DNA from: Impatiens glandulifera
Lineage: Eukaryota; Streptophyta; Magnoliopsida; Ericales; Balsaminaceae
Reading direction: 5' to 3'
Length of the DNA stretch: 64,000 nucleotides
NCBI RefSeq assembly: GCF_907164915.1
Contig: NC_061864.1
Span: 13,275,889-13,339,888, forward strand
Shown: positions 12,025 to 64,000 of the stretch, one piece after another
Layout of the letters: every line of letters begins with the position of its first letter
Position numbering within the stretch: position 1 is the stretch's first letter
The notes under the pieces: model-generated
What the model was told of the DNA's origin: nothing
Seen by the model: the letters and a program-made list of their open reading frames with translations, nothing else
Database searches by the model: none
Made by a program: the position numbers and the translations under genes

Positions 12025-12366
12025 TGATGCGGTGCGAGTTGAAGAGGCGTTTATGCGAAAGTTGCAGCATCCGAAAATATCTCGCAAGTGTCAGATTTCG
12101 ACGATTGCCTAGTGTTTTTCGGGCGGAAACGTTTAGGGGCTTAAAATCGCATTTTTTATTAGTTTTGGGTGTTTTTTGCAATTTATTAAAAGTTGTTTAT
12201 TTCTTTTGCAAGCTAGGGTTTGAGTATTTAAAGGATCTTAAAACACTTTGTTAGGGGAAGATTATTAATTAGAAAACGAGGTTTCCTCAATATCTATCAA
12301 CTTTCGGTATTCGTAAGAATCAACGAATCTTGATAAAGGTTCATCCTAGCCACGCACGCTGCATCA
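12025..12366 (+). repeat. 5' LTR of Gypsy copy 1
   Basis: 342 bp with inverted termini TGATGC...GCATCA. No difference from the 3' LTR at 16716-17057 on reading. Confidence 0.95.
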
Positions 12367-12368
12367 GT

Positions 12369-12377
12369 TGGTATCAG
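12369..12377 (+). promoter_or_regulatory. Primer-binding site (initiator-Met tRNA)
   Basis: TGGTATCAG two bases after the 5' LTR matches the usual complement of the plant initiator-Met tRNA 3' end for about nine bases. The same site is at 20117-20125 in copy 2. Confidence 0.8.
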
Positions 12378-12397
12378 TTTCCAGTCGACCCTGAGGT

Positions 12398-15300: not shown

Positions 15301-16803
15301 CAGGACAAGATTTCTCATCGTCATGCTTCGTGGGTCTCTTATTTACAGCAGTTTACTTTTGTGATTAAACACAAGGCTGGTGTGTCTAATCACGTGGCTG
15401 ATGCTTTGAGTCGTCGTCATGGGCTGTTGGCGGAGATGCGTGTCCATGTACCCGGCTTTGATTCGTTTGTGGACCTCTATCGTGATGATCCTTTCTTTTC
15501 TCAGGTCCTCATTCGCATCCAACAGGGGGATTCGAGGGACTTTGTCTTGGAGGATGGGTTCCTTTTCCGCGGTGTGCAGCTGTGCATTCCAGATTGCAGC
15601 CTGCGTTTGAGGATGATTCAGGAACTCCACAAAGAAGGCCATGTTGGGCGTGATCGTACCTTCCAGCTTCTTGCAGCTTCTTATTTCTGGCCTTCGATGC
15701 GCAAAGAGGTGGGGCGTTTTGTTGCTCGTTGTCGTGTTTGTCAGTTGGCTAAGGGCGCTTCGACTAATGCCGGGTTATACTTGCCTCTGCCTATTCCCAC
15801 TCAACCATGGTCTGATGTCAGTATGGATTTTGTCCTTGGGCTGCCACGTACCCAGCGTGGTTCTGATTCGATTTTTGTGGTGGTTGACCGATTCTCGAAG
15901 ATGGTTCATTTCATTCCCTGCAAGAAAACCTCTGATGCTGTGGCTGTTGCACAGCTTTATTTCAGGGATGTGTATCGCCTTCATGGACTTCCTGCCTCCA
16001 TAGTTTCTGATCGGGACACTCGCTTTGTGAGTCACTTTTGGAGGAGTCTTTGGCGTTTGGTTAATACTCAGCTGAATTTTAGCAGTGCCTATCACCCGCA
16101 AACTGATGGCCAAACTGAAGTTGTTAATAGGTCTTTGGGGAACCTTCTGCGCAGTTTAATTGGGGATCATCCTAAGGCTTGGGATCTGAAGCTGCCTCAG
16201 GCCGAGTTTGCTCACAATCATGCTGTTAATCGTTCCACTGGTTTCAGTCCTTTCCATGTGATTTACGGGCTGTCTCCGCGTGCTCCTCTTGATTTGTTAG
16301 CGCTGCCCAGCAAGGTGCGTCCTCATTCCACTGCTGCGGATTTTGTTGGTCAGTTGGCTCAGGTTCATCAGACCACTCATGACCGCTTGGTTGCTGCTAC
16401 TGCCAAGTACAAGGAGAAGGCTGATTCGAGAAGGCGTGCTGTTGATTTTGAAGTTGGTGACTTTGTGTGGGCTATTCTGACTAAGGATCGTTTTCCAGCT
16501 CATGAATATAGCAAGCTTGCTGCTAAGAAGATTGGTCCTGTTGAGATTGTGGAGAAGATCAACCCCAATGCTTATCGTTTACGCCTTCCCAGCCATGTGC
16601 GTACCTCTGATGTGTTCAATGTGAAGCATCTTGTTCCTTTTGTGGGTGAGTCTTCTTCTGATGAGGATGATGCGGTTCCAGATTCGAGGACGAATCTTTT
16701 CTACCCTGGGGGGAATGATGCGGTGCGAGTTGAAGAGGCGTTTATGCGAAAGTTGCAGCATCCGAAAATATCTCGCAAGTGTCAGATTTCGACGATTGCC
16801 TAG
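12398..16803 (+). pseudogene. Gag-pol polyprotein of Gypsy copy 1, one frameshift
   Basis: The reading starts at 12398 (MPPRRQPRNP, coiled N-terminus of Gag) and shifts frame near 12,630, where copy 2 has one more C. From 12661 a 1,380-codon frame continues unbroken. Positions within that frame: Gag core about 20-150; CCHC zinc knuckle near 213 (CFNCGEVGHRQAEC); protease with an IIDAG motif near 310; reverse transcriptase about 520-700 with YFDDILIYS near 660; RNase H from about 800; integrase zinc-binding region near 990; integrase core about 1050-1200; GPY/F-like segment about 1285-1310. The stop lies 88 bp inside the 3' LTR. Apart from the frameshift all domains look preserved. The single-base change lies in a C run and could be a sequencing error. 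Confidence 0.9.
16702..16715 (+). promoter_or_regulatory. Polypurine tract of Gypsy copy 1
   Basis: A G-rich stretch (ctgggggggaa-like) abuts the 3' LTR, the expected place for the plus-strand primer. In copy 2 the corresponding stretch has one base changed (ctagggggg). Confidence 0.75.
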
Positions 16804-17057
16804 TGTTTTTCGGGCGGAAACGTTTAGGGGCTTAAAATCGCATTTTTTATTAGTTTTGGGTGTTTTTTGCAATTTATTAAAAGTTGTTTATTTCTTTTGC
16901 AAGCTAGGGTTTGAGTATTTAAAGGATCTTAAAACACTTTGTTAGGGGAAGATTATTAATTAGAAAACGAGGTTTCCTCAATATCTATCAACTTTCGGTA
17001 TTCGTAAGAATCAACGAATCTTGATAAAGGTTCATCCTAGCCACGCACGCTGCATCA
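16716..17057 (+). repeat. 3' LTR of Gypsy copy 1
   Basis: 342 bp, TGATGC...GCATCA, followed by target duplication GGTAA. The first 88 bp also encode the C-terminal end of the gag-pol frame. Confidence 0.95.
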
Positions 17058-17150
17058 GGTAAACTAGTTGAGGTTCTTAGGGAAACTCATTGATCTTATT
17101 CAAAATCTCTGTGCTCATTAAAACTTGTTGTTTTTGTTTGATCATTGGTG
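17058..17150 (+). mobile_element. LINE 3'-end remnant, downstream part
   Basis: After the GGTAA duplication the sequence (aaactagttgaggt...) aligns with the part of the LINE at about 3,980-4,010 (aaactggtggaggc...). This continues the remnant interrupted at 12024. Confidence 0.6.
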
Positions 17151-19773: not shown

Positions 19774-20114
19774 TGATGCGGTGCGAGTCGAAGAGGCGTT
19801 TATGCGAAAGTTGCAGCATCCGAAAATATCTCGCAAGTGTCAGATTTCGACGATTGCCTAGTGTTTTTCGGGCGGAAACGTTTAGGGGCTCAAAATCGCA
19901 TTTTTATTAGTTTCGGGTGTTTTTTGCAATTTATTAAAAGTTGTTTATTTCTTTTGCAAGCTAGGGTTTGAGTATTTAAATAATCTTAAAACACTTTGTT
20001 AGGGGAAGATTATTAATCAGAAAACGAGGTTTCCTCAATATCTATCAACTTTCGGTATTCGTAAGAATCAACGAATCTTGATAAAGGTTCATCCTAGCCA
20101 CGCACGCTGCATCA
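19774..20114 (+). repeat. 5' LTR of Gypsy copy 2
   Basis: 341 bp, TGATGC...GCATCA. It differs from the 342-bp LTR of copy 1 by a handful of substitutions and a one-base length change in a T run. Confidence 0.95.
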
Positions 20115-20145
20115 GTTGGTATCAGTTTCCAGTCGACCCTGAGGT

Positions 20146-22801
20146 ATGCCGCCCCGAAGACAGCCGCGCAACCCTACCCCTGGTGCTGATGATGGTGACC
20201 TTGCTGAGTTGCGACGTGAAAACGCTGAGTTTCGCCGTGATAACGACGATTTGAGGCGGCAGGTTGAATGGTTTACGCAACGGATGGATGCATCTATGCA
20301 CATGCACCACCCTGAAGATGATGTTACGATGACAGATGAAAACCCTCTCGGTGGTCTTCGGAATCGATCCCCTGAACGCCCCAATCATCGCTGGGAGCAG
20401 GCTTTCAGGGTGGACATCCCTAAGTTCGATGGTAGTCTATCACCGGAAGAGTTTATTGATTGGCTTTCTCAGGTTGAAGAGATTCTGGATTTCAAGGAAG
20501 TTCCTGCAGATCGTCGTGTACCTACATGGTCGTGCACAAGCATGGTGGCAGCAGTTGAAACAGACACGTGTTCGTCATGGTAAGGCAAAGCTCACGAATT
20601 GGGACAAATTCAGGAAGCATATTAGGGCTGCGTTTCTACCATATAATTACGAACGTAACCTGTACCAGCGGTTCCAGAATCTTCGTCAGGGTTCTCGTTC
20701 CGTGGATGACTATTCCACTGAGTTTTACACCTTTGTGGCTCGTGTTGACCTGTCTGAGTCCCCTCTCCAATTGGTTTCTCGCTATATTGGTGGCCTTCGC
20801 CTCCAGTTGCAGGATATTTTGAATATGTTTGATCCCTTGACTGTTTCTGAGGCACATCAGCGTGCTTCACAGGCTGAGAAACAGCTAGCCAGGCGCGGTT
20901 CGGGTAGCTTTGGAAAACAGGTTGTCCCCACTAGTGGCATTGGTTCTTCTTCCCAGCCGGCCCATCCCACCCCAGCCCCCCCTCACAGCACTACAGCCCC
21001 CCCGCAGGGACGTCCCGGTGGCTTGCGTTGTTTCAATTGTGGTGAAGTTGGCCATCGCCAAGCAGAGTGTCGCAACCCAAAGTCCACCAATCGTGGTCTT
21101 TTTACTGAGGTGGATGATCCTGACTCTGCTCTTCCTTCAGATTCAGCCCCAGTGTATGATGTTTATGATGATGAGGCAGCGGAGGAGTATGTTTCTGGTG
21201 ATGTTGGCCCCCTTTTGGTGATTCGTCGATCATGTTTAACCCCTCGTGCTCCTGACAACGAGTGGTTACGCAATAATCTGTTCCATTCCACTTGTACCAT
21301 CGGTGGCAAAGTTTGCACCTTCATCATTGATGCTGGGAGTTGTGAGAATGTGATTTCTGAGGTTGCAGTTTCGAAGCTGGGTCTGTCCACTGAACCTCAC
21401 CCCAAGCCTTATCGCCTGTCCTGGCTGAGTCAAGGTACGGATGTTACAGTTTCCAAGCGCGTACTTGTTAATTTTTCCATTGGTTCCCATTATCGTGATG
21501 CTGTATATTGTGATGTGGTTCCTATGGATGCTTGTCACCTTTTACTTGGTCGCCCTTGGCAGTTTGATCATTCCGTTATACATGATGGGCGTGCTAATAC
21601 CTACACGTTCTTATTTCATGGTACCAAGATTGTGTTGATGCCAAATCAGCCCAAGAAGGGTGCTGCCCCCACTCATCATGCATCCCCCCCTACCACCTTG
21701 TTGTCTCGGGGTCCTTTTCAGACCGCCATGGTCGAATAGGGCATGGTGTTTGCTCTATTTTGTTCGCTGATTACCTGTGGTGCTAGTTCTGAGGTGCCTA
21801 TTCCAGTGCAGCCGCTGTTACAGGAGTTTGCAGATGTTTTTCCTGAGAATCTGCCTTGTGCCTTGCCTCCTTTGCGTGATATCCAGCATCACATTAACTT
21901 GGTTCCAGGTGCTGCCCTACCCAACCATCCTCATTACCGCATGAGTCCCAAAGAACATGAAGAGTTGCGTAGACAGGTGGAGGACTTGCTGGCTAAGGGA
22001 CACATTCGAGAGAGCCTTAGTCCCTGTGCTGTCCCGGCCCTTCTTACCCCAAAAAAGGATGGGTCTTGGCGTATGTGCATTGATAGTCGTGCTATCAACA
22101 AGATTACAGTGCGTTATCGGTTTCCTATTCCCCGGTTGGATGACTTGTTGGATCAGTTGGGTGGTGCTTCTGTGTTTAGCAAACTGGATCTCAAGAGTGG
22201 ATACCATCAGATTCGTATTCGCATGGGTGATGAGTGGAAGACTGACTTTAAGACTCGTGAGGGCTTATATGAGTGGCTGGTTATGCCGTGTGGTCTGTCG
22301 AATGCTCCTAGCACCTTTATGCGTATGATGAACCAGGCTCTTCGCCCTTTCATTGGGAAGTTTGCTCACAATCATGCTGTTAATCGCTCCACTGGTTTCA
22401 GTCCTTTCCATGTGATTTACGGACTGTCTCCGCGTGCTCCTCTTGATTTGTTAGCGCTGCCCAGCAAGGTGCGTCCTCATTCCACTGCTGCGGATTTTGT
22501 TGGTCAGTTGGCTCAGGTTCATCAGACCACTCATGACCGCTTGGTTGCTGCTACTGCCAAGTACAAGGAGAATGCTGATTCGAGAAGGCGTGTTGTTGAT
22601 TTTGAAGTTGGTGACTTTGTGTGGGCTATTCTGACTAAGGATCGTTTTCCAGCTCATGAATATAGCAAGCTTGCTGCTAAGAAGATTGGTCCTGTTGAGA
22701 TTGTGGAGAAGATCAACCCCAATGCTTATCGTTTACGCCTTCCCAGCCATGTGCGTACCTCTGATGTGTTCAATGTGAAGTCTTGTTCCTTTTGTGGGTG
22801 A
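20146..22801 (+). pseudogene. Gag-pol remnant of Gypsy copy 2
   Basis: The Gag start at 20146 is in frame through the site where copy 1 is shifted, but a 17-bp deletion near 20,522 then breaks the frame. Zinc knuckle and protease (IIDAG) follow in the pol frame until a stop codon at 21737-21739 (two adjacent bases differ from copy 1). The frame resumes at 21743 through the first half of reverse transcriptase, then jumps directly to the late integrase core by a 1,578-bp deletion that keeps frame. A 2-bp deletion near 22,780 truncates the C-terminus. RT active site, RNase H and most of integrase are absent, so it is defective. Confidence 0.9.
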
Positions 22802-22867
22802 GTCTTCTTCTGATGAGGATGATGCGGTTCCAGATTCGAGGACGAATCTTTTCTACCCTAGGGGGAA

Positions 22868-23208
22868 TGATGCGGTGCGAGTCGAAGAGGCGTTTATGCG
22901 AAAGTTGCAGCATCCGAAAATATCTCGCAAGTGTCAGATTTCGACGATTGCCTAGTGTTTTTCGGGCGGAAACGTTTAGGGGCTCAAAATCGCATTTTTA
23001 TTAGTTTCGGGTGTTTTTTGCAATTTATTAAAAGTTGTTTATTTCTTTTGCAAGCTAGGGTTTGAGTAATTAAAGAATCTTAAAACACTTTGTTAGGGGA
23101 AGATTATTAATCAGAAAACGAGGTTTCCTCAATATCTATCAACTTTCGGTATTCGTAAGAATCAACGAATCTTGATAAAGGTTCATCCTAGCCACGCACG
23201 CTGCATCA
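22868..23208 (+). repeat. 3' LTR of Gypsy copy 2
   Basis: 341 bp, TGATGC...GCATCA, followed by TAAAG. Confidence 0.95.
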
Positions 23209-33413: not shown

Positions 33414-33829
33414 ATATATGATATGACATGTACCCAATTTACTCAAATACACCTAGCTAGACATGATATACAAGATAGAACTCACCATTAAAATTGGAAA
33501 TGGGCTAAAAAATTTTTTTTCTGACCAATCAAAATATATTTAGTATAAGATATAATTTATTATAAATAGGGACAGATTTAAAAATTAGAATTAGAATTAT
33601 AGTGGCTTGACTAAAAAAAATAAGAGAAATTATGAATGAAATACATGGATCAATTTGAGAAACAAATAATAAATGAAATTAAAAAATTAAAAGATTATGT
33701 ATATGTTAACAAAAATATTGGTTTTATAAATATATATATTTTAAAGTGAACCTCTATCTAATGGTAAATTCTTACGATGATAATTTGAAATTGTCTTGCG
33801 AAAATTGAACATAATTATCCTGTTTGGGA

Positions 33830-34245
33830 CGGTTTTTCCTCGAAATCGAATGGGGATGAGACGAGAATAATATTTGTATCCCTGTCCCGTCCCGTCCCAA
33901 TTTCACCTCGATTCTGTCCCGAACACCATAAATATAAGTAAATATATTAAATTATCATTATATTTATTTATTTACTATATTTTATAAGAGTAAGTAAGGT
34001 TATTTCTTTATAATAATATAAAATTTTAATATATTATAATATATATTATATTTAAAAAATCGTTTATATAATTTTATTGTATAATTTTTATTTATTTAAA
34101 AAAAAATTATTAACGGTGCCCCGCGAGATTCCCCGAAACCGAAAAAAACCGAACGGGGCAGAGATAATATTAAAAAAAATCTTGAAATTAAAACGGGGCG
34201 GGGATGATAAATATATTGCTCGCCCCGAACCGCACTATTGTCATC
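33830..34245. mobile_element. MITE-like remnant with GC-rich ends
   Basis: Two GC-rich tracts (repeated cccgtccc at 33,880-33,900 and cggggcgggg near 34,190-34,205) flank an AT-rich core, ending cactattgtcatcctta. This is like other plant elements ending in gtcatcctta, including the one at 11,721-11,821. A diverged copy is at about 57,235-57,650. I see no clean TIR or target duplication. Confidence 0.4.
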
Positions 34246-34249
34246 CTTA

Positions 34250-35500
34250 CTTAGTAAATCATTATCAACTAACTTACTAAAATGTATTGATCCAAAAAAG
34301 TAAATTATTCTCGTAACATGCATTCACACCTAATTTTGAGTTTAATTGAATTATTGAAATCATTCAAATTAAAAAAATATTATTTCTCCTTTACTCATTG
34401 ATCATATTGCTTAATTTATTAACTAAAATACTAAAAAAAAAATATTTTTATTTTATTATTATATATTAAAACATTTCAAGTTTTTTTATCACAAAAAAAT
34501 TCATCTCCTCAAAGTCATAACAATCATTCTTTCTAAATAACCAATTCAAACAAAAACCTATGTTTTCACTTAATTTGTTAGATCAGTAGATTGGTAGTAT
34601 TATAAAATATTTGAACAACAGTATTCAACATTTGAAGTTGAAATAATATTGTTTAATCATTAATTATTATTATTTGTAGTTACAAATTTTTAAACATAAT
34701 TTGGAGTTAAATATTTTGAAAATTATTAGATGTTATGAATTGAATCAAGTATAGTTAATAATATAATATTTGTGATAATTGAAATTTATACTTTTATCTT
34801 AATTTTTAAATTAAATTAATATGAAAATAATAAAAATGAAATTTGAAAATATTATCGGTGCACAATTATTTTTTATCGGTTCAAGATTACGCGTATTTGT
34901 ACGAACGCACGTTTATGTGTCGGCCAAATTTCATACCAACACAATTTTTACGCGCTAAGTATAATAACATAAATTATTTTAAAACTTTTTACAAATGTTT
35001 TTTTTTTGTGTGTAGTGGAGATTCAAACACATATGTTAGGTGGTGGGAGAAAATATATCTTAAACTTTACCATAGAAAAATTAATTTTTTTTTAAATATA
35101 ATGTATCATATAATTATAATTTATGTTTTTTTATATATATAATTAACATCTTACTTAAATATATATTATCATATTAATATAAGCAAAGTTCACTAAAATT
35201 TTATATTTAAAGAAAATAAAGATGATGAATAAATAAATCTCAGTAACAAATATCTAACTGAATTTTTTTTATTAAGTTTATGTTAATGGAAAAATGCCAT
35301 AAATTCTAGTATTACAGCAAATTTTAAACACACAGTATAACTTTTTATTAATCATTTCTAAAGAAAGACTTGAGGTAAAAAATCAAGTGGTATTGAACAT
35401 GTAAATACCACTTTCAATACCATCTCAATGTGAATGGATCAATGGAAGAAAATCCCAAAATTTCCTATAATTGGTACTTACTAATCTCTTAACACACTTT
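34250..35500. other. AT-rich spacer in segmental duplication
   Basis: No supportable gene. A 99-codon frame at 34843-35142 has a counterpart at 58262-58555, but the two diverge by frameshift and length at their ends, which argues against coding. The part around 34,895-34,970 is notably less AT-rich and may be an old transposon end. Confidence 0.4.
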
Positions 35501-35602
35501 TGGATTTCAATATCCATATTATATAGTGAGTTACAACATTATTCAATTATTAGAAATAAATAGTAATTAAATCAATGATGGTAAACAAAATTTAATGAGT
35601 CT

Positions 35603-36760
35603 TTATTTGTTGCAGGGGGTGCCTTGAATGTAGAACCCTCGATATGACGATGTAAAAGGAGCCTTAGACCAATCTACAGCCCCAGCCCATGATCCATTCC
35701 AAACGGTCCCCTCCACATGCAAAGGTCTCGAAATGTAATTCGGAGGGTAAATGAACGTTCTTACCGTCTTATTATCAATTTTGAACCTGTAGTTTGACAT
35801 CAATACAAGATCAATTATCATATTTTCAATAATTAATGTTTAAGGGCGCGCAATTAAATTAAGAACTTACAAGATTTGCTGAGGATTCCAATTAATCTCG
35901 TAAGTATGAAACGCTGCAGAGGGATTAAACCATAGGTTAACCAACTCCTCTCTATGACCTGGATCGTTTACGAACACATTTGTCTGAAACTTCCCTTTTG
36001 TCCCTATAAATTCAAAGTCAATCTCGTCGTGTTTTGGTTCATTCTTGTTGCTAGAAATTAGCTGGATATTGTCATCACAATAAAATGTTAAAAGATTGAC
36101 AAAGAAGAGAAACCCATCAATTTAATTTCTTTAAATTAAATAGAATTATAAGACACTACTTACATAAAAAGATGTAACAATTCCTCCTGTTAATTTTTCT
36201 GATATCTTTATTTGCATTCTGAATATCCCAGAACAATATTCTTGTTTAGATTTAAATCCAGCTCCTACAATTCATCACAACAAATATCACATTTCAAACT
36301 GAAGTGCAATTGAGTTCATTTGAAAGATTTTTTTATTATTATATATATATATGATTCAAACCCTGGTCCACATTCAGATCCAACTCCGACATAGATATTT
36401 TCAAACAAAGTCGAATAGAGCCGATCGAATATCCCTTAAATTTGAAATTGGTGAGGAAATACCTAATTTATTTAAAAGAATCAAGATTATCATTTTGTTA
36501 CTACTACCCTTTGAAATAATGGTTTTATGATGTTAATTAATTTTTTAAAAGTAAAATAAAATTGAAAATAGTCATAATAATTAAAAAAAATTCATACCAG
36601 AAGTGGCATCAATAAGAATTTGGACTTCTTTGCCTTGATCAGTGACACTCAAATGATCAAATCCCCAAAAGGGTTCATAATATTTGTCAAATACTTCATC
36701 GCTCATAACCACAACCACTCCCAAAACCATAATAATCAGACTTTCTCTTATTAAACCCAT
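35603..36760 (-). CDS. Short XTH-like GH16 protein, copy C
   Basis: Exons 36598-36760 (163 bp), 36164-36264 (101), 35871-36061 (191), 35603-35786 (184); 212 aa, intact. Signal peptide about 1-21 (MGLIRESLIIMVLG...). Catalytic motif [10 protein letters not shown] at 99-108 with E101, D103, E105. The residues after it read TKGKFQTNVF, so the NGT glycosylation sequon of copies B, D and F is lost. C-terminus [25 protein letters not shown]; no XET C-terminal domain. It is the near twin of copy G (59024-60265) because both lie in a segmental duplication. Expected to be secreted; whether it still acts on xyloglucan is unknown. Confidence 0.88.
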
Positions 36761-36839
36761 CTTGAGTTCTTGATCACTTATTTAAATTCTTAATTTGTTG
36801 GTTAATTAATCGTAGAAACATTACATATTTATACATATT

Positions 36840-37799
36840 TTTTATATCCATAAATAGTTAAGTGATTAGTGCATATTTATTTATTCATTCCGAAACAACT
36901 AAAACATTTGATATATAAGATAGCACTAATTAATATTTGAGTTATTTTAGTGTGTTTTAAAAGAAAAAGAAGTTAATATTTTTTATTTATTTTCAAAATT
37001 TATAATCTCAATAACTGTATATAATAACTATAGACTAATCTCTTATAAAAAGAAGTAAAATACTGTAAGAGACATTGTTAATGTACCTATCAGTCCATTT
37101 ATTTCAAATACTGAGATTTTTAGTTAAATCTATTATATTTTTAAATATATAAAATTGTAGCTTAGTGATTTAAAATAAATTTAGAGTTTTTATTTGGTTA
37201 TTGGTTCAAATCTCACATATATTTTTTATCAACTTTTTAATCTAGACATAAGGCAACAAAATATATCTACAATTGCAATGTACCCCATTTATCCAACCAC
37301 ACCTAGACATGATATACAAGATAGAACTCATAATTAATCCATACTGGGCTAAATTTATTCTAAAAATAAATCCTCTTAATTATTTTCTAGCAAAATGTGA
37401 CCCATCAAATTGTGTTATTGTAGAAGGTTGACCAATCAATGTTTATATTACTCCACACAATTAATATTATTCTCATATCATGTATACACAGTTCATTTTG
37501 AGTTTAATATTAAGTTGAAAATACAATTAATATTATCTATACACAATTAATTTTGAGTTTTTATTAATTTTGAGTTTAATAAAAATAGTTCTATATTATT
37601 AGTAATCTATTAATAAGTCTTTACGTTAACGATGTTCACAATATATTTATTCTTATTATGTAACATGTATTAATGAATCCTTTGTCATTTCAATGTATAA
37701 GGTTTTTTCACTAGAAAGATTCGCAAATGCGGATTTCATTCCGGTTCGTAGTTACAAGCAAATATTTTATCTTTACCTTAATTCTATAAGGTGTGTTTG
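36840..37799. other. Upstream spacer of XTH-like copy C
   Basis: AT-rich, non-coding. About 37,270-37,430 resembles 33,420-33,530, so each XTH unit carries this upstream module. The rest shows nothing supportable up to the TIR element at 37800. Confidence 0.45.
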
Positions 37800-40700
37800 A
37801 TGAGGAGGAATTGAAATTGACATTGGTATTGAAATTCTAATTCCAATTCCATGAGAGTTGACATTGAAATTCTTATGTTATGTTTGGAAAAATTATATAA
37901 TTATAATTCAATTCCAATTCCTATGTTTGGGAAAATGATAGAATTGTAATTCAATTCTAATTCCTATGTTTGTAAAATAAAATATCGGTTCAAAATATTA
38001 ACTTTTTAAATATGTTTTCATGTTTTTGGCACGTTTAATACGTTTTTGACATGTTTAACACGTTTTTGACATTTTTAACATATTTTTACACGTTTTTGGC
38101 ACGTTCAAACACGTTTTTGACATGTTTAACAAATTTTCACACTTAAAACACATTTTCACATGTTTAACATGTTTTTCACGTTTTTGGTATGCTTAACACG
38201 TTTTTGACATTTTTAATACGTTTAACATGTTTTTCACACGTTTTAACAAATTTAACACGTTTTCACGTTTTTGGCACGTTTTTAACATGTTTAATACGTT
38301 TTTCATACGTTTAACACGTTTTTGGCATGTCTAACACGTTTTACATATTTTTGACACGTTTAACATATTTTTTCATGTTTTGGCACATTTAACACATTTT
38401 TCACACGTTTAACACGTTTTCACACGTTTAACACGTTTTCACACGATAAACATGTTTTTCACGTTTTAACACATTTTTCACGTTTTCACACGTTTTTCAC
38501 ACGTTTTAACACGTTTTAACAAGTTTAACACGTTTTTCACGTTTTCACACGTTTTTCACACATTTTAACAAGTTTAACACGTTTTCACACGTTTTTCACG
38601 TTTTTCGCACACTTTAACAAGTTTAACATGTTTTCACGTTTTTGGCACGTTTTTAACATGTTTAATACGTTTTTCACACGTTTAACATGTTTTTCACGTT
38701 TAACACGTTTTTGGCATGTATAACACGTTTTACATATTTTGACACGTTTAATACATTTTTTCACATTTTGGCACATTTAACACGTTTTTCACACGTTAAA
38801 CACGTTTTTCACACGTTTTTCACATTTAACACATTTTTCACAATGTAAAATGTAAAAATGTAAAAACGTGTTAAACGTATCAAAAATGTGTTAAACGTGC
38901 CAAATAAGTGCAAAACTTGTTAAACGTTCCAAAACGTGAAAAACGTGTTAAATGTGTTAAAAATATGTCAAACGTTTCAAAAATGTAAAAAACATGTGAA
39001 ACGTGTCAACAACGTGTTAAATGTGTTTAATGTGTTAAAAACATCTTAAACGTGTTAAAAACATGAAAGCATGTCAAAAAAGTGCTAAACGTTCCAAACA
39101 TGTGAAAAACATGTTGTACGTGCCAAAACGTAAAAAATGTGTTAAACGTGTCAAAAATGAGGTAAATGTGTCAAAAACATAAAAAAAAATGTGTTAAAGG
39201 TGTCAAAAACATGAAAATATGTTAAACGTGTCAAAAACGTAAAAGAACGTGTTTAATGGTCAAAAACGTGTTAAAAGTGTCAAAATGAGGTAAATGTTTC
39301 AAAATCATAAAAAAAATGTGTTAAATGTGTCAAAAACGTAAACAATTGTGTTAAATGTGTAAAAAACGGAAAAAAAAACGTGTTAAATGTGTCAAAAACG
39401 TGAAAACGTGATAAACGTGTCAAAAACGTGTAAAAACGTGAAAAACTTGTTAAACGTGCCAAAATGTGTCAAAATATAATAACATGAAAACGTGTCAAAA
39501 ACGTGTTAAACGTTCTAAGCATGTGAAAAACTTTTTAAACGTGCCAAAACGTGAAAAACATATTAAACGTGTTAAACGTGTCAAAATGTGGTAAACATGT
39601 CAAAAACGTAAACAAATGTGTTAAATGTGTCAAAAATGTGAAAACGTGTAAAAAACGTAAAAAAAAACATGTTAAATGTATCAAAAACGTGAAAACATGT
39701 TAAACGTGTCAAAAACGTGTTAAATATGTGAAAAACTTGTTAAACGTACCAAAACGTGCAAAATGTGCCAAAAAGTAAAAAACGTGTTAAACGTGTTAAA
39801 CAGGTCAATAACGTGAAAATCATATTAAACGTGTCAAAAACGTGTTAAACGTGTCCAGGACATGTTAAACGTGTCAAGGACGTGAAAAACGTGTTAAATG
39901 TGTCAAAAACGTGTTAAACGTGTCAAGAACGTGAAAACGTGTTAAGAACGTGAAAATGTGTTAAACGTGTTAAATGTGCCAAAAACATATTAAACGTGTC
40001 AAAAACGTGTTAAATGTGTTAAACGTGTTAAACGTGTCAAAAACGTGTTAAACGTGTTAAAAACGTGAAAACCATGTTAAACGTGTCAATAACGTGTTAA
40101 ACGTGCCAAGAACGTGTTAAACGTGTCAAGGACGTGAAAAACGTGTTAAACATGTCAAGGACGTGAAAAAAGTGTTAAATGTGTCAAAACGTGTTAAACG
40201 TGTCAAAAACGTGTTAAACGTGCCAAAAACGTGTTAAACGTGTTAAAAACGTGTTAAACGTGTTTAAAACATGAAAATCATTTTAAAAGTATCAAGGACG
40301 TGTTAAACGTGTCAAGGACGTGAAAACGTGTTAAATGTGTCAAAAACGTGTTAAACGTGTTAAATAACGTGTTAAACGTGCCAAAAACGTGTTAAAAACG
40401 TGTTAAATGTGTTTAAAAACGTGAAAACCATGTTAAACGTGTCAATAACGTGTTAAACGTGTCAAGAACGTGTTAAACGTGTCAAGGACGTGAAAAACGT
40501 GTTAAATGTGTCAAAACGTGTTAAACGTGTCAAAAACGTGTTAAACGTGCCAAAAACGTGTTAAAAACGTGTTAAATGTGTTTAAAACATGAAAATCATT
40601 TTAAAAGTATCAAGGACGTGTTAAACGTGTCAAGGACGTGAAAACGTGTTAAATGTGTCAAAAACGTGTTAAACGTGTCAAGGACGTGAAAAAACGTGTT

Positions 40701-41779
40701 AAATGTGTCAAAAACGTGTTAAACGTGTCAAAAACGTGTTAATTGTGCCAAAAACGTGTTAAATGTGCCAAAAACGTGTTAAACGTGCCAAAAACGTGTT
40801 AAACGTGTCAAAAACGTGTTAAACTTGTTAAAAACGTGAAAATCATGTTAAATGTGTTAAACGTGTCAAGGACGTGAAAAACGTGTTAAACGTGTCAAGG
40901 ACGTGAAAAACGTGTTAAATATGTCAAAACATGTTAAACGTGTCAAAAACGTGTTAAACGTGCCAAAAACGTGTTAAACATGTCAAAAACGTGTTAAACA
41001 TGTTAAAAACGTAAAAATCGTGTTAAACATGTTAAAAATGTGTTAACCGTGTCAAGGACGTGTTAAACGTGTCAAGGACGTGGAAAACTTGTTAAATGTG
41101 TTATAAACGTGTTAAACGTGTCAAGGACGTGTAAAACGTATTATATGTGTCAAAACGTGTTAAACGTGTCAAAAACGTATTAAACGTGCCAAAAACGTGT
41201 TAAACGTGTCAAAAACGTGTTAAACATGTTAAAAACATGAAAATCATGATAAACGTGTCAAGGGCGTGTTAAACGTGTCAAGGACGTGTTAAACGTGTAA
41301 AGGACATGAAAACGTGTTAAATGTGTCAAAAACGTGTTAAACGTGCCAAAAATGTGTTAAACGTGTTAAAAACATGTTTAACGTGTTAAAAACGTGAAAA
41401 TCATGTTAAACGTGTCAATGACGTAAAAAACGTGTTAAATGTGTCAAAAACGTGTTAAACGTGCCAAAATATGAAAATATGTTAAACGTGTGAAAAACGT
41501 GTTTAATATGTGAAAAACATGTTAAACATGTCAAAAACATGAAAAACGTGTTAAACATGTCAAAAAAACATGAAAAACGTGTTAATTTGGAATTACAATT
41601 CCGACCTAAAAAGATTGGAATTAAGAACTATCAAATTACACTATATTGAATTTCATTGGAATTCTAATTCCAATTCTTAATATTAAAGTGTTTAACAAAC
41701 ATAAGAATTGGAATTGGACCCTCCAATTCCAATTCAAATTCCAATTCCAATGCAAATTTCAGGGTTATCAATCACACCC
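37800..41779. mobile_element. TIR element carrying a palindromic satellite, copy 1
   Basis: Ends are GGTGTGTTTGAT at left and, reverse-complemented, GGGTGTGATTGAT at right, flanked by TAA (37797-37799 and 41780-41782). Subterminal regions on both sides are full of the (g)gaattgaaatt / aattccaattcc motif in opposite orientation. TAA duplication and GGTGTG-like ends fit a PIF/Harbinger (Tourist-like) element. The interior is entirely satellite and no transposase is present. The flanks are conserved around copy 2 at 61260. Confidence 0.7.
37985..41585. repeat. ACGT-rich ~20-bp satellite in giant inverted arrangement, copy 1
   Basis: From about 37,985 to 38,850 the + strand reads as cacgttt(aa/tt) units; from about 38,850 to 41,585 it reads as their reverse complement. 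The dominant unit is tcaaaaacgtgttaaacgtg (20 bp), itself two half-units of 11 and 9 bp each ending acgtg. Variants (gtcaagg, gccaaa, gtgaaaa) recur in higher-order blocks. The arms are unequal (about 0.87 and 2.7 kb). Open frames here are artefacts. Confidence 0.95.
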
Positions 41780-41782
41780 TAA

Positions 41783-55199: not shown

Positions 55200-56793
55200 A
55201 TAAAATTAATGTCATCGACGAGGCAAGGAGATTTGTGATCTCTCCGCTAAGGAGGCTAGTTCTCAAATTTAAATGGTTAGTAAGTTGTTCGATATATGTA
55301 AGGAATAATAAATTGGAACACGCTAGTGAAGTAGAGCTACATGGTTAAGAGTCTAATGCGCAAGCAATAAATAATGTGCTTAATTTGATCTTAATCTAGG
55401 GGAAGTTCATGATAATGAATAGAAATCTTTGTGAGTATTGTAAACTATAAGAGTTTGTTTGAAGAGTCATTTAAGGTAAATGATATTACTTTTGATTCAA
55501 TTAATACAACACAAAAAGAGATGCTTGTTTTTCGACAGTGGGGGTTGAGGAGGTTATTAAGGGGTGCGAAAATGATAAAGTGTTGGGATGCGACAAGTTA
55601 TTTTGACTTTTTTTAAGAAGGCGTGGTATTTCCTTAAAATTGTAATTATGAAATTAATTGAACATTTTTATCGTTTTTCATCATTTTACAAGAGTTAGAA
55701 CTCTATTTTGATATGTCTCGTTCGTAAAGCTCTAGGGACTATTAATGTGAATAATTTTAAGTTTACCAGTCTCATTTTGTCTTTCTATAAAATTGTCGCA
55801 AAATATTTAGCCAACAAGTTGCGGAGGGTGTTAAAAATGGTCATATTTAGTAATCAGATAACATTCATAGAAGATTGTAAAATCTATGATGTCGTATTAA
55901 TAGTCAATGAGTGAATTGACTCAACTACTTCAAGAGGTGACAAATGGGCTTTTTTAAGTTAGACATATAAAAAAGCTTATGATCACGTCAAATTTGGAGT
56001 TTTTGTTTGATGTAATTGACAGAATGGGTGCAAAATGGATAAACTATATTATATTTTTATCTCTCGACGATTAAGTTTTCTGTCTTTGTTAATGGGAATT
56101 CTTATGGGTTTTTCAAGAGCTCCCAAGGGATTAGACAGGGTGATCCACTCTCTCGTTTCTTGTTCGTCACTATTATGAAACCCTCTAAAAATGATAGCTT
56201 TCGTAAAAACTCAGGACTCCATGGAGTAAGTTGTGGGTCAAGAATATATATCATTTTATTGTATCACATTTTTCACTGATGACCCGCTCTACATGGCTCA
56301 GGCTACCTACACGAATTTTAAACATATTTTGGATTTTTATGGTTATTCGGTGCATGTTTCGGTCTTTGAATTAATCTTAATAAGTCATACATTTTTTATT
56401 ATATTTGGTTTCAAATAGAAGTAGGATTAAGTTGATAAATGTGTTGAGATTTAGAATTGATGATCTTTCGTTAATCTATCTTGGTTTTATGGTTATTCGG
56501 TGCATGTTTCGGTCTTTAAATTAATCTTAATAAGTCATACATTTTTTCTTATATTTTGTTTCAAATAGAAGTCGGATTAAGTTAATAAATGTGTTGAGAT
56601 TTAGAATTGATGATCTTTCGTTAATCTATCTTGGTATTCCATTGGCATTCAGTGATAAATTACGATTCAATGTCTCTTAGGACTTGATTATCACTAAAAT
56701 GGAATGTAAGTTGTCTAGATGGAAAAATAAAATAATCTCTAAAGGAGGTCAGTTAATTCTCAATAAGAGTGTGTTGTCATCTATGCCTACGTA
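55200..56793 (+). pseudogene. Decayed L1-type LINE ORF2 (reverse transcriptase)
   Basis: In shifting frames the order is that of a plant L1 ORF2: pre-RT region near 55,430 (NYKSLFEESFKVNDITFDSI); RT start near 55,730 (GTINVNNFKFTSLI, YKIVAKYLANKLRRVL); a YKKAYDHV-like segment near 55,970; GIRQGDPLS-like coding near 56,130; a decayed FTDDPLYM in place of the FADD box near 56,270; YLGIPLAFSDK near 56,635 and SRWKNKIISKGGQL near 56,720. It stops abruptly at the segmental duplication boundary. Multiple stops and frameshifts; inactive. Confidence 0.85.
56337..56636 (+). repeat. 150-bp tandem duplication inside LINE remnant
   Basis: The block starting ttttatggttattcggtgc at about 56,337 is repeated from about 56,487 with an offset of exactly 150 bp and few differences. 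150 is a multiple of three, but the frame was already broken. Confidence 0.9.
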
Positions 56794-57659
56794 TATGATA
56801 TGACATGTACCCAATTTACTCAAATACACATGATATACAAGATAGAACTCACCATTAATATTGGAAATGGGCTAAATTTATTCTATTCTTTTTTTTCTAT
56901 TATTTTCTAGCAACAAGTGACCGATCAAAATATATTTAGTATAAGATATAATTTATTATAAATAGGGACAAATTTAAAAATTAAAATTAGAATTATAGTG
57001 GCTAGACAAAATTTGGAGTGACTTACAAAAATGAAGAGAAAATATATATATATATGAGAAACAAATAATAAATTAGATTAAAAAATTAAAAGATTATGTC
57101 CAATGTAAAAAAAAAAAAAAAAAAAAAAAATATTATTTTTATAAATATATATATTTTAAAGTGAACCAATGTCTAATTGTAAATCCTTACTACTAAAGAC
57201 AACATCAAATTTCACTGCGAAAACTGAACCGAATTGTCTTGTTTGAGACGGTTTTTTCTTGAAACCGAATGGAGATGGGACGAGAATGGTATTTGCGTCC
57301 TCACCCCGATTTCACCTCAATTCTGTCTCGAACACCATAAACATAATTAAATATATTAAATTACCAATATATTTATTTATTCACTCTATTTTATAAGAGT
57401 AATAAAGTTATTTATTTATAATAATATAAAATTTTAATATATTATAATATATATTATATTAAAAAAATCATTTATATAATTTTATTGTATAATTTTTATT
57501 TATTTTTAAAAAAAAAATTATTAATAGTGCCCCGCGGGATTCCCCGAAACTGAAAAAAACCGAACGAAACAGGGATGATATTAAGAAAATTCCTAACATT
57601 AAAACGAGACAGGGATAATAAATGGATTTCTCGCCCCGGAGTCATTCCTACTTTACTGT

Positions 57660-59020
57660 TGTAAATCATTATCAACAAACTTACTAAAATGTGTTGATCC
57701 AAAAAAGTAAATTATTCTCCTAACATGCATACACACCTAATTTTGGGTTTAATTGAGTTATTCAAATAATTCAATTTTAAAAATATATTATTTCTCTTTT
57801 ACACCTTAATTATATCATTCAATTTATTAACTAAAATACTAAAATTTTCTTTATTTTTATTTTATTATTATATATTAAAACATTTCAAATTTTTTTATCA
57901 CAAAAAAATTCAACTCCTCAAAATCATAAAAATCATTCTTTCTAAATAACCAATTCAAACAAAAACCTATGTTTTCACTTAATTTTTTAGATCAGTTGAT
58001 TGGTAGTATTATAAAATATTTGAACAACAGTATTCAACATTTGAAGTTGAAATTATATTGTTCAATCACTAATTATTATTATTTGTAGTTACAAATTTCT
58101 AAACATAATTTGGAGTTAAATATTTTGAAAATTATTAGATGTTATGAATTGAATCAAGTATAGTTAATAGTATAATATTTGTGATAATTGAAATTTATAC
58201 TTTTATCTTAATTTTTAAATATTTTAAAATTAAAATAATATAAAAATAATAAAAATGAAATTTGAAAATATTATCTGTGCACAATTATTTTTTATCAGTT
58301 CAAGATTACGCGTATTCGTACGAACGCACGTTTATGTGTCGGCCAAATTTCATACCGACACAATTTTTACGCGCTAAGTATAATAACATAAATTATTTTA
58401 TAACTTTTTACAAATGTTTTTTTTTTTGTGTAGTGGAGATTCAAACACATATGTTAGGTGGTGGGAGAAAATATATCTTAAGATTTACCATAGAAAAATT
58501 AAAAAAATTAAATATAATGTATCATATAATTATAATTTATGTTTTTTTTATATAATTAACATCTTACTTAAATATATATTATCATATTAATATAAGCAAA
58601 GTTCACTAAAATTTTATATTTAAAGAAAATAAAGATGATGAATAAATAAGTCTCAGTAACAAATATCTAACTGAATTTTTTTATTAAGTTTATGTTAATG
58701 GAAAAATGCCATAAATTCAATTTGTCACAAATAGTATTACAGCAAATTTTAAACACATAGTATAACTTTTTATTAATCATTTCTAAAGAAAGACTTGAGG
58801 TAAAAAATCAAGTGGTATTGAACATGTAAATACCACTTTCAATACCATCTCAATGTGAATGGATCAATGGAAGAAAATCCCAAAAATTCCTATAATTGGT
58901 ACTTACTAATCTCTTAACACACTTTTGGATTTCAATATCCATATTATATAGTGAGTTACAACATTATTCAATTATTAGAAATAAATAGTAAATCAATGAT
59001 GGTAAACAAAATTTAATGAG
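57660..59020. other. AT-rich spacer in distal duplication
   Basis: Homologous to 34,250-35,600. No gene supported; see the remarks on the short frame at 58262-58555. Confidence 0.45.
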
Positions 59021-59023
59021 TCT

Positions 59024-60265
59024 TTATTTGTTGCAGGGGGTGCCTTGAATGTAGAACCCTCGATATGATGATGTAAAAGGAGCCTTAGACCAATCTACAG
59101 GCCCAGCCCATGATCCATTCCAAACGGTCGCCTCCACATGCAAAGGTCTCGAAATGTAATTCGGAGGGTAAATGAACGTTCTTACCGTCTTATTATCAAC
59201 TTTGAACCTGTAGTTTGACATCAATACAAGATCAATCATCATATTTTCAATAATTAATGTTTAAGGGCGCGCAATTAAATTAAGAACTTACAAGATTTGC
59301 TGAGGATTCCAATTAATCTCGTAAGTATGAAACGCTGCAGAGGGATTAAACCATAGGTTAACCAACTCCTCTCTATGACCTGGATCGTTTACGAACACAT
59401 TTGTCTGAAACTTCCCTTTTGTCCCTATAAATTCAAAGTCAATCTCGTCGTGTTTTGGTTCATTCTTGTTGCTAGAAATTAGCTGGATATTGTCATCACA
59501 ATAAAATGTTAAAAGATTGACAAAGAAGAGAAACCCATCAATTTTCTTTAAATTAAATAGAATAAGACACTACTTACATAAAAAGATGTAACAATTCCTG
59601 CTGTTAATTTTTCTGATATCTTTATTTGCATTCTGAATATCCCAGAACAATATTCTTGTTTAGATTTAAATCCAGCTCCTACAATAATTCATCACAACAA
59701 ATATCACATTTCAAACTGAAGTGCAATTGAGTTAATTTGAAAGATTTTTTTTATTAAATATATATAATTCAAAATATTATTTTGTTTAAATCAACATTCA
59801 AATGAGATACTTAATAAAAAAAACTTTCAAATAAATATATATATATGATTCAAACCCAGATCCACATTCAGATCCAACTCCGACATAGATATTTTCAAAC
59901 AAAATCGAATAGAGCCGAATATCCCTTAAATTTGAAATTGATGAGGAAATACCTAATTTATTTAAAAGAATCAAGATTATCATTTTGTTACTACTACCCT
60001 TTGAAATAATGGTTTTATGATGTTAATTAATTTTTTAAAAGTAAAATAAAATTGAAAATAGTCATAATAATTAAAAAAAAAAATTCATACCAGAAGTGGC
60101 ATCAATAAGAATTTGGACTTCTTTGCCTTGATCAGTGACACTCAAATGATCAAATCCCCAAAAGGGTTGATAATATTTGTCAAATACTTCATCGCTCATA
60201 ACCACAACCACTCCCAAAACCATAATAATAATAATAAGAATCAGACTTTCTCTTATTAAACCCAT
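59024..60265 (-). CDS. Short XTH-like GH16 protein, copy G
   Basis: Exons 60091-60265 (175 bp), 59578-59678 (101), 59292-59482 (191), 59024-59207 (184); 216 aa, intact. The four extra residues relative to copy C come from an expanded ataata tract in the signal peptide core (LIIIIM). Catalytic [10 protein letters not shown] with E105, D107, E109; TKGK follows instead of the NGT sequon, as in C. One glycine just before ITSFY-type sequence in exon 2 is alanine (GGA to GCA). C-terminus [25 protein letters not shown], no XET C-terminal domain. Twin of copy C through segmental duplication, 23.4 kb apart. Confidence 0.88.
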
Positions 60266-60339
60266 CTTGAGTTCTTGATCACTTATTTAAATTCTTAATT
60301 TGTTGGTTAATTAATCGTAGAAACATTACATATTTATAC

Positions 60340-61259
60340 ATATTTTAATATCCATAAATAGTTAAGTGATTAGTGCATATTTATTTATTCATTCCGCGAC
60401 AACTAAAACATTTGATATATAAGATAAGACTAATTAATATTTGGTTATTTTAGTGTGTTTTAAAAGAAAAAGAAGTTAATCCTTTTTATTTATTTACAAA
60501 ATTTATAATCTCAATAACTGTATATAATAACTATAGACTAATCTCTTCTAAAAAGAAGTAAAATACTGTAAGAGACATTGTTAATGTACCTAATTATCAG
60601 TCCATTTATTTCAAATACTAAGATTTTTAGTTAAATCTATTATATTTTTAAATATATAAGATTGTAGCTTAGTGATTTAAAATAAATTTAGAGTTTTTAT
60701 TTGGTTATTGGTTCAAATCTCACATATATTTTTTATCAACTTTTTAATCTAGACATAAGGCAACAAAATATATCTACAATTGCAATGTACCCCATTTATT
60801 CAACCACACCTAGACATGATATACAAGATAGAACTCATAATTAATCCATACTGGGCTAAATTTATTCTAAAAATAAATCCTCTTAATTATTTTCTAGCAA
60901 AATGTGACCCATCAAATTGTGTTATTGTAGAAGGTTGGCCAATCAATGTTTATATTACTCCACACAATTAATATTATTCTCATATCATGTATACACAGTT
61001 CATTTTGAGTTTAATATTAAGTTGAAAATACAATTAATTTTGAGTTTAATAAAAATAGTTCTATATTATTAGTAATCTATTAATAAGTCTTTACGTTAAT
61101 GATGTTCACAATATATTTATTCTTATTGTGTAACATGTATTAATGAATCATTTGTCATTTCAATGTATAAGGTTTTTTCACTAGAAAGATTCGCAAATGC
61201 GGATTTCATTCCGGTTTGTAGTTACAAGCAAATATTTTATCTTTACCTTAATTCTATAA
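60340..61259. other. Upstream spacer of XTH-like copy G
   Basis: Near-identical to 36,840-37,799 apart from small indels (for example a missing about 30-bp repeat of acaattaatattatc near 61,030). No gene. Confidence 0.5.
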
Positions 61260-64000
61260 GGTGTGTTTGATGAGGAGGAATTGAAATTGACATTGGTATT
61301 GAAATTCTAATTCCAATTCCATGAGAGTTGACATTGAAATTCTTATGTTATGTTTGGAAAAATTATAGAATTATAATTAAATTCCAATTCCTATGTTTGA
61401 GAAAATGATAGAATTGTAATTCGATTCTAATTCCTATGTTTGTAAAATAAAATATCGGTTCAAAATATTAACTTTTTAAATATGTTTTCATGTTTTTGGC
61501 ACATTTAATACGTTTTTGACATTTTTAACACGTTTTTGACATTTTTAACACATTTTTACACGTTTTTGGCACGTTCAAACACGTTTAACAAATTTTCACA
61601 CTTAAAACATATTTTCACACGTTTAACATGTTTTTCACGTTTTTGGTATGCTTAACACGTTTTTGACATTTTTAATACGTTTAACATGTTTTTCACACGT
61701 TTTAACAAGTTTAACACGTTTTTCACGTTTTTGGCACGTTTTTAACATGTTTAATACGTTTTTCATACGTTTAACACGTTTTTGGCATGTCTAACACGTT
61801 TTACACATTTTTCACACATTTAACACGTTTACACACGATAAACATGTTTTTCACGTTTTAACACATTTTTCACGTTTTCACACGTTTTTCACGTTTTCAC
61901 ACGTTTTCACACGTTTTAACAAGTTTAACACGTTTTCACGTTTTTCGCACACTTTAACAAGTTTAACATGTTTTCACGTTTTTGGCACGTTTTTAACATG
62001 TTTAATACGTTTTTCACACGTTTAACATGTTTTTCACGTTTTTCACACGTTTAACACGTTTTTGGCATGTATAACATGTTTTACAAATTTTGACACGTTT
62101 AACACATTTTTTCACATTTTGGCACATTTAACACGTTTTTCACACGTTAAACACGTTTTTCACATTTAACGCATTTTTCACACGTTAAACACGTTTTTCA
62201 CATTTAACGCATTTTTCACACATCTAACATATTTTTCACATTATTGGCACGTTAAACACATTTTTGGCATGTCTAAAACATTTAACACATTTTGACACGT
62301 TTAACATGTTTTTTACGTTTTGGCAAGCTTAACATGTTTTTCACGTTTTCACACGTTTTTCATATTTTTCACACATTTACACATGTTTTTCACGTTTTTC
62401 ACACAATTTTCACGTTATTAACACATTTTTCACGTTTTTGGCACATTTAACACGTTTTTGACATTTTTAATATATTTAACATGTTTTTCACACGTTTTGA
62501 TTGGTTTAAAACGTGTTAAACATGTCAAAAACATAGAAACGTGTTAAACGTATCAAAAATGTGTTAAACGTGCCAAATAAGTGCAAAACTTGTTAAACGT
62601 GCCAAAACGTGAAAAACATGTTAAATGTGTTAAAAATATGTCAAACGTTTCAAAAATGTAAAAAACATGTGAAACGTGTCAACAACGTGTTAAATGTGTT
62701 TAATGTGTTAAAAACATCTTAAACGTGTTAAAAACATGAAAGCGTGTCAAAAACGTGTTAAACGTTCCAAACATGTGAAAAACATGTTGAACGTGCCAAA
62801 ACGTAAAAAATGTGTTAAACGTGTCAAAAATGAGGTAAATGTGTCAAAAACGTAAAAAAATGTGTTAAAGGTGTCAAAAACATGAAAATGTGTTAAACGT
62901 GTCAAAAACGTAAAAAAACGTGTTTAATGGTCAAAAACGTCTTAAATGTGTCAAAATGAGGTAAATGTTTCAAAATCATAAAAAAAATGTGTTAAATGTG
63001 TCAAAAACGTAAACAATTGTGTTAAATGTGTCAAAAACATAAAAAAAAACGTGTTAAATGTGTCAAAAACGTGAAAACGTGATAAACTTGTCAAAAACGT
63101 GTAAAAAATTTGAAAAACTTGTTAAACGTGCCAAAATGTGCCAAAATGTAATAACATGAAAACGTGTCAAAAACGTGTTAAACGTTCTAAGCATGTGAAA
63201 AACTTGTTAAACGTGCCAAAACGTGAAAAACATATTAAACGTGTTAAACGTGTCAAAATGTGGTAAACATGTCAAAAACGTAAACAAATGTGTTAAATGT
63301 GTCAAAAACGTGAAAACGTGTTAAACGTGTAAAAAACGTAAAAAAACATGTTAAATGTATCAAAAATGTGAAAACATGTTAAACGTGTCAAAAACGTATT
63401 AAATATGTGAAAAACTTGTTAAACGTACCAAAACATGCAAAATGTGCCAAAAAGTAAAAAACGTGTTAAACGTGTTAAACATGTCAATAACGTGAAAATC
63501 ATGTTAAACGTGTCAAAAACGTATTAAATGTGTCCAGGACATGTTAAACGTGTCAAGGACGTGAAAAACGTGTTAAATGTGTCAAAAATGTGTTAAACGT
63601 GTCAAGAACGTGAAAACGTGTTAAATGTGTCAAAACGTGTTAAACGTGTTAAATGTGCCAAAAACATGTTAAACGTGTCAAAAACGTGTTAAACGTGTCA
63701 AAAACGTGTTAAACGTGTTAAAAACGTGAAAATCATGTTAAACGTGTCAATAACGTGTTAAACGTGTCAAGAACGTGTTAAACGTGTCAAGGACGTGAAA
63801 AACGTGTTAAAAATGTCAAGGACGTGAAAAACGTGTTAAATGTGTCAAAACGTGTTAAACGTGTCAAAAACGTGTTAAACGTGCCAAAAACGTGTTTAAA
63901 ACGTGTTAAACGTGTTTAAAACGTGAAAGTCATGTTAAACGTATCAAGGACGTGTTAAACGTATCAAAGACGTGTTAAACGTGTCAAGGACGTGAAAACG
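61260..64000. mobile_element. TIR element carrying a palindromic satellite, copy 2 (partial)
   Basis: Left end GGTGTGTTTGATG after TAA, and the same gaattgaaatt-rich subterminal region as 37800. The right end lies beyond the window. Confidence 0.7.
61470..64000. repeat. ACGT-rich ~20-bp satellite in giant inverted arrangement, copy 2
   Basis: The cacgttt-orientation arm spans about 61,470-62,505; the acgtg-orientation arm runs from about 62,510 to the window end. The left arm is about 0.2-0.3 kb longer near the centre than in copy 1. The junction reads through gattggtttaaaacgtg, unlike copy 1 (aatgtaaaatgtaaaaatg). Variant units occur in the same order as in copy 1, so the array was duplicated whole. 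Confidence 0.95.

Follow-up and report, generated by a model that had tools for sequence, protein, structure and literature searches.

A 64,000-nucleotide stretch of the Impatiens glandulifera genome (contig NC_061864.1, positions 13,275,889 to 13,339,888; here called the window) contains a long array of a short repeat that reverses direction within an apparent DNA transposon. This raises the question of whether the transposon has become a carrier of the satellite, and if so, how the inverted arrangement arose. The ends of the element, which were read directly, place it at 37790 to 41779 (3,990 bp), with TAA target-site duplications at 37787 to 37789 and 41780 to 41782. The original prediction was therefore correct about terminal inverted repeats (TIRs), the TAA duplication, and the end of the element, but its start at 37800 was 10 bp too late. 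The left terminal domain (37790 to 38021, plus strand) has the TIR GGTGTGTTTGAT from 37790 and 43-bp subrepeats at 37879 to 37977. The right terminal domain (41586 to 41779, plus strand) has the TIR ATCAATCACACCC, ending at 41779. The two domains form an imperfect inverted repeat, with a local score of 52 versus 28 for the best of 200 single-base shuffles, in sequence that is low in complexity.

TRF identified a period of 20 on both sides of the interior, with reverse-complementary units: GTTTTTGACACGTTTAACAC on the left (38022 to 38818) and AAAAACGTGTTAAACGTGTC on the right (38862 to 41555). TRF and strand-specific motifs together delimit a left arm in which the unit is reversed (38022 to 38841, minus strand) and a right arm in which it runs forward (38862 to 41585, plus strand). 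Reverse motifs occur only before ~38,842 and forward motifs only after ~38,862, a single strand flip near 38,850. These results confirm both the predicted filling of a TIR element with a 20-bp, ACGT-containing repeat and the predicted position of the flip; the two inverted arms are also real, with measured lengths of ~0.82 and ~2.72 kb in place of the 0.87 and 2.7 kb first proposed. The inversion junction (38842 to 38861) is a deleted form of the intact Harbinger-family junction core, ACGTTTTGATAGGTTTAAAACGTG.

Autocorrelation of the right arm gave its top peak at 20 bp, followed by 9 and 29 bp, and from this we take the unit to be composed of unequal halves, 9 and 11 bp long. The left and right arms match at ~75% with gaps, which is no better than the 73 to 78% between shifted stretches within one arm. 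The palindrome is thus imperfect, and its arms have no clear mirror register. RNA folding nevertheless predicted pairing of 744 of the 823 left-arm bases with the right arm, in line with the earlier proposal that the arms could pair, at a minimum free energy of -1402 kcal/mol versus -914 kcal/mol when the left arm was turned round. Long inverted arms of tandem repeats are the structure of foldback-type elements, a structural class that includes TU of sea urchins. No transposase or Myb domain was shown in the satellite element itself, which is non-autonomous. Positions 37790 to 41779 hold 135 AACGTG and 40 CACGTT motifs, compared with densities of 0.07 and 0.43 per 4 kb elsewhere in the window. 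We take AACGTG to be a bHLH (MYC2) site, and it might be speculated that ~175 AACGTG/CACGTT motifs per element could act as a sink for ACGT-binding factors.

The 3-bp TWA target-site duplication of PIF/Harbinger elements is present in the window copy (TAA/TAA). Of 20 independent copies, 10 had both ends read and 10 had at least one end unread; among the fully read insertions, TAA or TTA duplications match in 8, and the flanks of L015 and L027 are unequal (TTA/TAA). Searching the genome for the TIR ends, as the original prediction had proposed, revealed not only a dispersed family but also three satellite-free relatives with the same TIR: L029 (3.9 kb), L030 (4.2 kb), and L031 (4.2 kb). Two inward-facing copies of the exact end led to each of L029 and L031, whereas L030 was located through a single exact end next to a DDE_Tnp_4 match. 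All three have the short G-rich TIR GGGTGTGTTTGAT at both ends and matching 3-bp duplications. Their left 170 to 197 bp are 87 to 89% identical to the family consensus and their right ends 73 to 75%, and they contain 0, 1, and 1 satellite-type motif matches, respectively.

The relatives, read as pieces that are broken up in L029, between them contain parts of the genes expected of a Harbinger element. In L030, the Pfam model DDE_Tnp_4 matched at 40.7 and 33.5 bits, against a cut-off of 24.8, and Myb_DNA-bind_3 at 62.8 bits, against 23.6. L031 has a Myb_DNA-bind_3 match of 50 bits (cut-off 23.6) and no transposase match in the two pieces scanned, but it presumably has a transposase because it is 93% identical to L030 over 4.2 kb. 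L029 has DDE pieces of 30.9 bits, which passes, and 24.0 bits, just short, together with a Myb piece that is also just short at 21.7 bits. A DDE_Tnp_4 transposase and a Myb/SANT protein, both characteristic of PIF/Harbinger, are therefore found in the relatives but not in the satellite element. The satellite appears to occupy the place of the genes in a Harbinger element.

To what extent the window element is typical was evaluated across 653.9 Mb in 1110 contigs. One query, comprising 1 kb of the left part, yielded 2623 first-look candidates; the 40 that were scored are on C1 to C8 and C872 and mostly aligned from the end of the element. When only the right terminal domain was used, there were 1326 first-look candidates, and again 40 of them were scored. 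Twenty regions were fetched from the left-part search. The 20 copies measured with both domains (window copy included) are 2.27 to 4.06 kb long, some ends being approximate, with left parts of 1.07 to 2.26 kb and right parts of 0.88 to 2.92 kb. Among them, only L015 and L023 have a wrong-side motif, a single forward one in each case. A single flip was found in all 27 Harbinger copies examined (20 + 3 + 3 + 1 in successive sets), a number that includes four duplicates of one insertion. L018 and two copies in L026, in which no right domain was detected, have the same single flip in coarser bins, and L013 consists of two abutting copies.

The junction CACACGTTTTGATAGGTTTAAAACGTG is present, with small changes, in 17 of the 20 copies; the window copy and L009 have the deleted form in common, and L028 is without the junction. 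Its 24-base core, with up to 2 mismatches, was found at 242 genomic places on many contigs, compared with 0 for the reversed control. Among the first 100 of 235 exact left ends, at least 21 have an exact junction 0.74 to 1.46 kb inside, versus 1 outside, 21 being a lower bound because the junction list was of exact matches only. The copies make up a non-autonomous PIF/Harbinger family dispersed through the genome. Its palindrome most likely had a single origin and was then multiplied by transposition, because the fetched copies, for which this holds, have the junction in common at unrelated sites and the junction core recurs at 242 places.

The original prediction also pointed to a second copy at 61260. 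It exists (61260 to 64000, plus strand; locus L011), with a flip at ~62,500, but it is cut by the window end, its right end lying ~1.2 kb beyond, and it is not separate evidence of mobility. Within the window, 33415 to 36360 is repeated at 56792 to 59773 (89.9% identical) and 36341 to 40334, satellite included, at 59835 to 63987 (85.8% identical). Because the element-adjoining flank and the target site match those of the copy at 37790, the copy at 61260 is the product of a segmental duplication rather than an independent insertion. Two more copies downstream on the same contig (L010 and L009) also have the common flank. The 500-bp left flanks are common only to these four duplicates (the window copy, L009, L010, and L011), and the other Harbinger copies are thus separate insertions. 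The duplicated region holding the element also contains a unit of up to 1.4 kb (31489 to 60394) that is repeated at 31.5, 35.5, 42.2, 52.8, and 58.9 kb, its copies being 73 to 83% identical to the first.

The four duplicates provide a comparison of arms with ends. Near flanks differ at 0 to 1.6% of aligned bases, plus 0 to 5 gaps of up to 37 bp, end domains at 0 to 3.7%, and arms at 0.6 to 9.0% with 15 to 36 gaps, many of them of 9, 10, 11, 18, 20, or 29 to 30 bp. The end domains are the fairer yardstick because the outer duplicated stretch (33415 to 36360) is only 89.9% identical and the near flank is perhaps unusually alike. For example, the window copy and L009 show no difference in 1,699 flank bases and only a single 5-bp deletion in the left domain, but their arms are separated by 19 mismatches and 15 gaps, of which one spans 312 bp. 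In a second family, described below, left ends are 93 to 99% identical and arrays 77.5 to 93.7%, with 19 to 29 gaps. Arms thus change faster than ends, with the caveat that some array mismatches may reflect misalignment around gaps or assembly error in repeats. Across 17 Harbinger copies, C-to-T change amounts to 12.3% at CG and 7.9% at CHH and T-to-C change to 1.9%, a pattern that would fit past cytosine methylation.

An exact satellite 34-mer was found at 213 genomic places (control, 0). Nine loci were fetched from 100 listed places, chosen where no listed Harbinger end or junction was nearby; the selection was non-random, and the resulting 4:5 split between Harbinger and other ends is no estimate of proportions. 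All nine loci are palindromic with the same polarity. Four (L033, L036, L039, and L042) have Harbinger domains. The other five (L032, L034, L035, L037, and L038) have different ends, similar to TAGGGGTGAGCA at both sides where both were observed, with 8-bp duplications, and because of these ends and duplications we designated the family hAT-type. The 8-bp target-site duplication expected of the hAT superfamily was seen in six copies with both ends, matching at 8 of 8 positions in L032, L034, L037, and L040, 7 of 8 in L041, and 6 of 8 in L035. L040 and L041, which were chosen by the hAT-type end alone, are also palindromic. Only one end of L038 was observed, and sequence that by eye resembles the Ty3/gypsy element of the window adjoins its array. 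Beyond one 18-bp match, no homology was found between hAT-type and Harbinger ends.

A search with the hAT-type left domain gave 1406 first-look candidates, and the family is probably young, at least as far as the 40 scored copies are concerned, because their left domains are all 97 to 100% identical to the query. A single flip was found in 7 of 7 hAT-type copies. The junction of this family, which is recognizable in 6 of the 7 (L032 has a deletion and L035 differs), occurs at 223 places with up to 2 mismatches (control, 0). Among the matches listed (100 of 223), a junction lies 0.26 to 1.57 kb inside 16 of the 40 left domains and outside none. Also among the matches listed, seven hAT junctions fall within 83 kb at C1:85674560-85757557, by local duplication or local hopping. 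At C3:25139191-25145887, four satellite 34-mers are spread over 6.7 kb, three of them ~780 bp apart; this cluster may reflect nesting of copies or the beginning of a more extended array.

The original prediction made the carrier idea depend on the satellite not occurring elsewhere without the Harbinger TIRs. It does occur without them, at five of the nine loci, yet within the ends of another transposon. Arrays free of a mobile element, as in a classical satellite, were not seen in the sample of nine loci (of 213 34-mer places); all nine are inside carriers. Thus, the satellite is carried by a transposon, as proposed, but not exclusively by Harbinger.

Whether the two families have one palindrome in common or built two is more finely balanced. 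The comparison suggests that the inverted array moved from one superfamily to the other, to which we give a little under an even chance. On this reading, the module, arms and junction together, would have passed between PIF/Harbinger and hAT and been spread by two unrelated transposases, a transposon parasite keeping its palindromic form across superfamilies. The alternative, which we consider quite plausible without favoring it, is that the 20-bp repeat reached both families from a common source and was made into an inverted pair separately in each, with no palindrome transfer. Like arms of the same family have a mean identity of 79 to 81%; for opposite arms of a single element the mean is 74%, and for arms of different families it is 73 to 76%. 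The cross-family value is near the opposite-arm level and below the like-arm level, as separate palindromes would predict. The commonest unit variant also differs between the families, the commonest hAT-type 20-mer having GCC where the Harbinger unit has GTC, and the top-ranking Harbinger 20-mer is one of the twelve most frequent in the hAT-type family. When Harbinger pieces adjoining the junction were mapped freely, their best matches were elsewhere in the hAT arms and not at the hAT junction, so that the junction-proximal pieces do not map onto each other.

Several observations are harder to reconcile with separate palindromes. Polarity is the same in 27 Harbinger and 7 hAT copies, and cross-family right arms score 0.66 bits per base, somewhat above the baseline of 0.55 to 0.58. 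In an anchored test, the number of 1000 virtual junctions reaching the hAT junction was 2 for L037, 2 for L040, 10 for L038, and 13 for L041, in favor of the hAT junction in these four copies, and 58 for L034, a weak fifth, although the hAT copies are related rather than independent; four Harbinger controls each gave 0 of 500. L032 (463) and L035 (597) failed the test, and these failures, like the negative free mapping, argue against one common inverted array.

Regardless of how this is decided, the window element is very probably a non-autonomous foldback-type PIF/Harbinger transposon with a satellite interior, its palindrome copied from one ancestor. The ~200 to 230 bp at each end would be the ends of a Harbinger lineage whose coding interior was replaced by satellite with two facing arms, and a Harbinger transposase and Myb/SANT protein would act on it in trans. 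The inverted array would have been born once in an ancestor and then copied by transposition, with units gained or lost inside each copy, likely by slippage, unequal exchange, or interrupted gap repair. The same satellite, as one inverted pair of the same polarity, also fills a young hAT-type family; the array would have passed between the families, in either direction, via ectopic repair or insertion.

Other explanations account for less of the evidence. In one of them, which follows a proposal made for Galileo, the repeats would be multiplied sites to which the transposase or its Myb partner binds. The tandem repeats of Galileo contain extra transposase binding sites (PMC3688188), and the array here does begin just inside each terminal domain. 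However, the same array is present in two families with unrelated ends, and the unit is not above chance in the 300-bp ends of L029 to L031 (the observed match was reached by 13, 32, 13, 40, 32, and 40 out of 40 shuffles), making this explanation unlikely. That an independent satellite is merely flanked by an unrelated MITE might seem to gain from the finding of satellite without these TIRs, but loci whose flanks are unrelated repeat the same succession of left domain, reverse arm, junction, forward arm, and right domain, and all nine satellite-found loci have carrier ends (four Harbinger and five hAT). This highly improbable explanation is refuted for the copies examined. An assembly artefact at the inversion point would have to be repeated wherever the junction core is found, which is at 242 places spread over many contigs, and the junction is common to copies that are clearly diverged and located at unrelated sites; such an artefact is, on this comparison of sequences, very unlikely, to the point of being negligible.

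The original prediction was aware of no described element of exactly this design. The basic design is already known from MtPH-A6-4, which has Harbinger ends with an inverted tandem array, and from Tetris and Galileo. Of 23 MtPH-A6-4 PIF/Harbinger elements of Medicago truncatula, 18 have inverted tandem arrays of a 60-bp unit in which the AAACNNCTTATT motif is triplicated, and the group resembles the Impatiens family in Harbinger ends, a 3-bp duplication, repeat-free members, and internal inversions (PMC2213677). The Impatiens family differs in its 20-bp ACGT unit, AAAAACGTGTTAAACGTGTC, its one conserved junction with a core at 242 places, and the presence of its repeat in a second superfamily. 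Tetris (PMC4079207) and Galileo (PMC3688188) likewise have long inverted tandem-repeat arms with an end domain outside the repeats, and Drosophila Foldback and rice Tnr8 are further foldback-type elements named in these sources. Galileo belongs to the P superfamily and its units differ, and Tetris repeats also form longer free satellite-like arrays, in contrast to the nine loci here.

Helitron/Helentron elements and pearl MITEs are also mobile elements carrying satellite-like arrays, and the same array type occurs across different Helitron elements according to a review, but their palindromes are inside monomers; the accessible parts of these accounts describe no two-facing-arm arrays and no single array in two cut-and-paste superfamilies (PMC5139131, PMC12628747). 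A literature search, mostly at the title and abstract level, found no report of one satellite in both Harbinger and hAT. In the papers searched, four 13- to 14-letter strings of the unit gave one match, in an insect paper. What is new, as far as the literature was searched, is one palindromic satellite in Harbinger and hAT-type families, each with its own junction at more than 200 places.

Satellite repeats are found at many genome sites, and two transposon families with the same inverted satellite, their junctions at 242 and 223 places, bear on the question of how satellites spread. The system allows palindrome instability to be measured in place, array growth to be followed after each insertion, and the passage of tandem repeats between unrelated transposons to be tested.

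The window has other repeated features. By eye and by blast, a tandem gene family with a PIR2-like helical domain occupies 1301 to 29955, with seven related reading frames; Pfam PF20235 was found in the two members scanned. A Ty3/gypsy element at 12019 to 17058 has 349-bp direct end repeats that are 99.7% identical. Another copy, internally deleted and with ends 99.4% identical, lies at 19774 to 23208. Both Ty3/gypsy copies look young.
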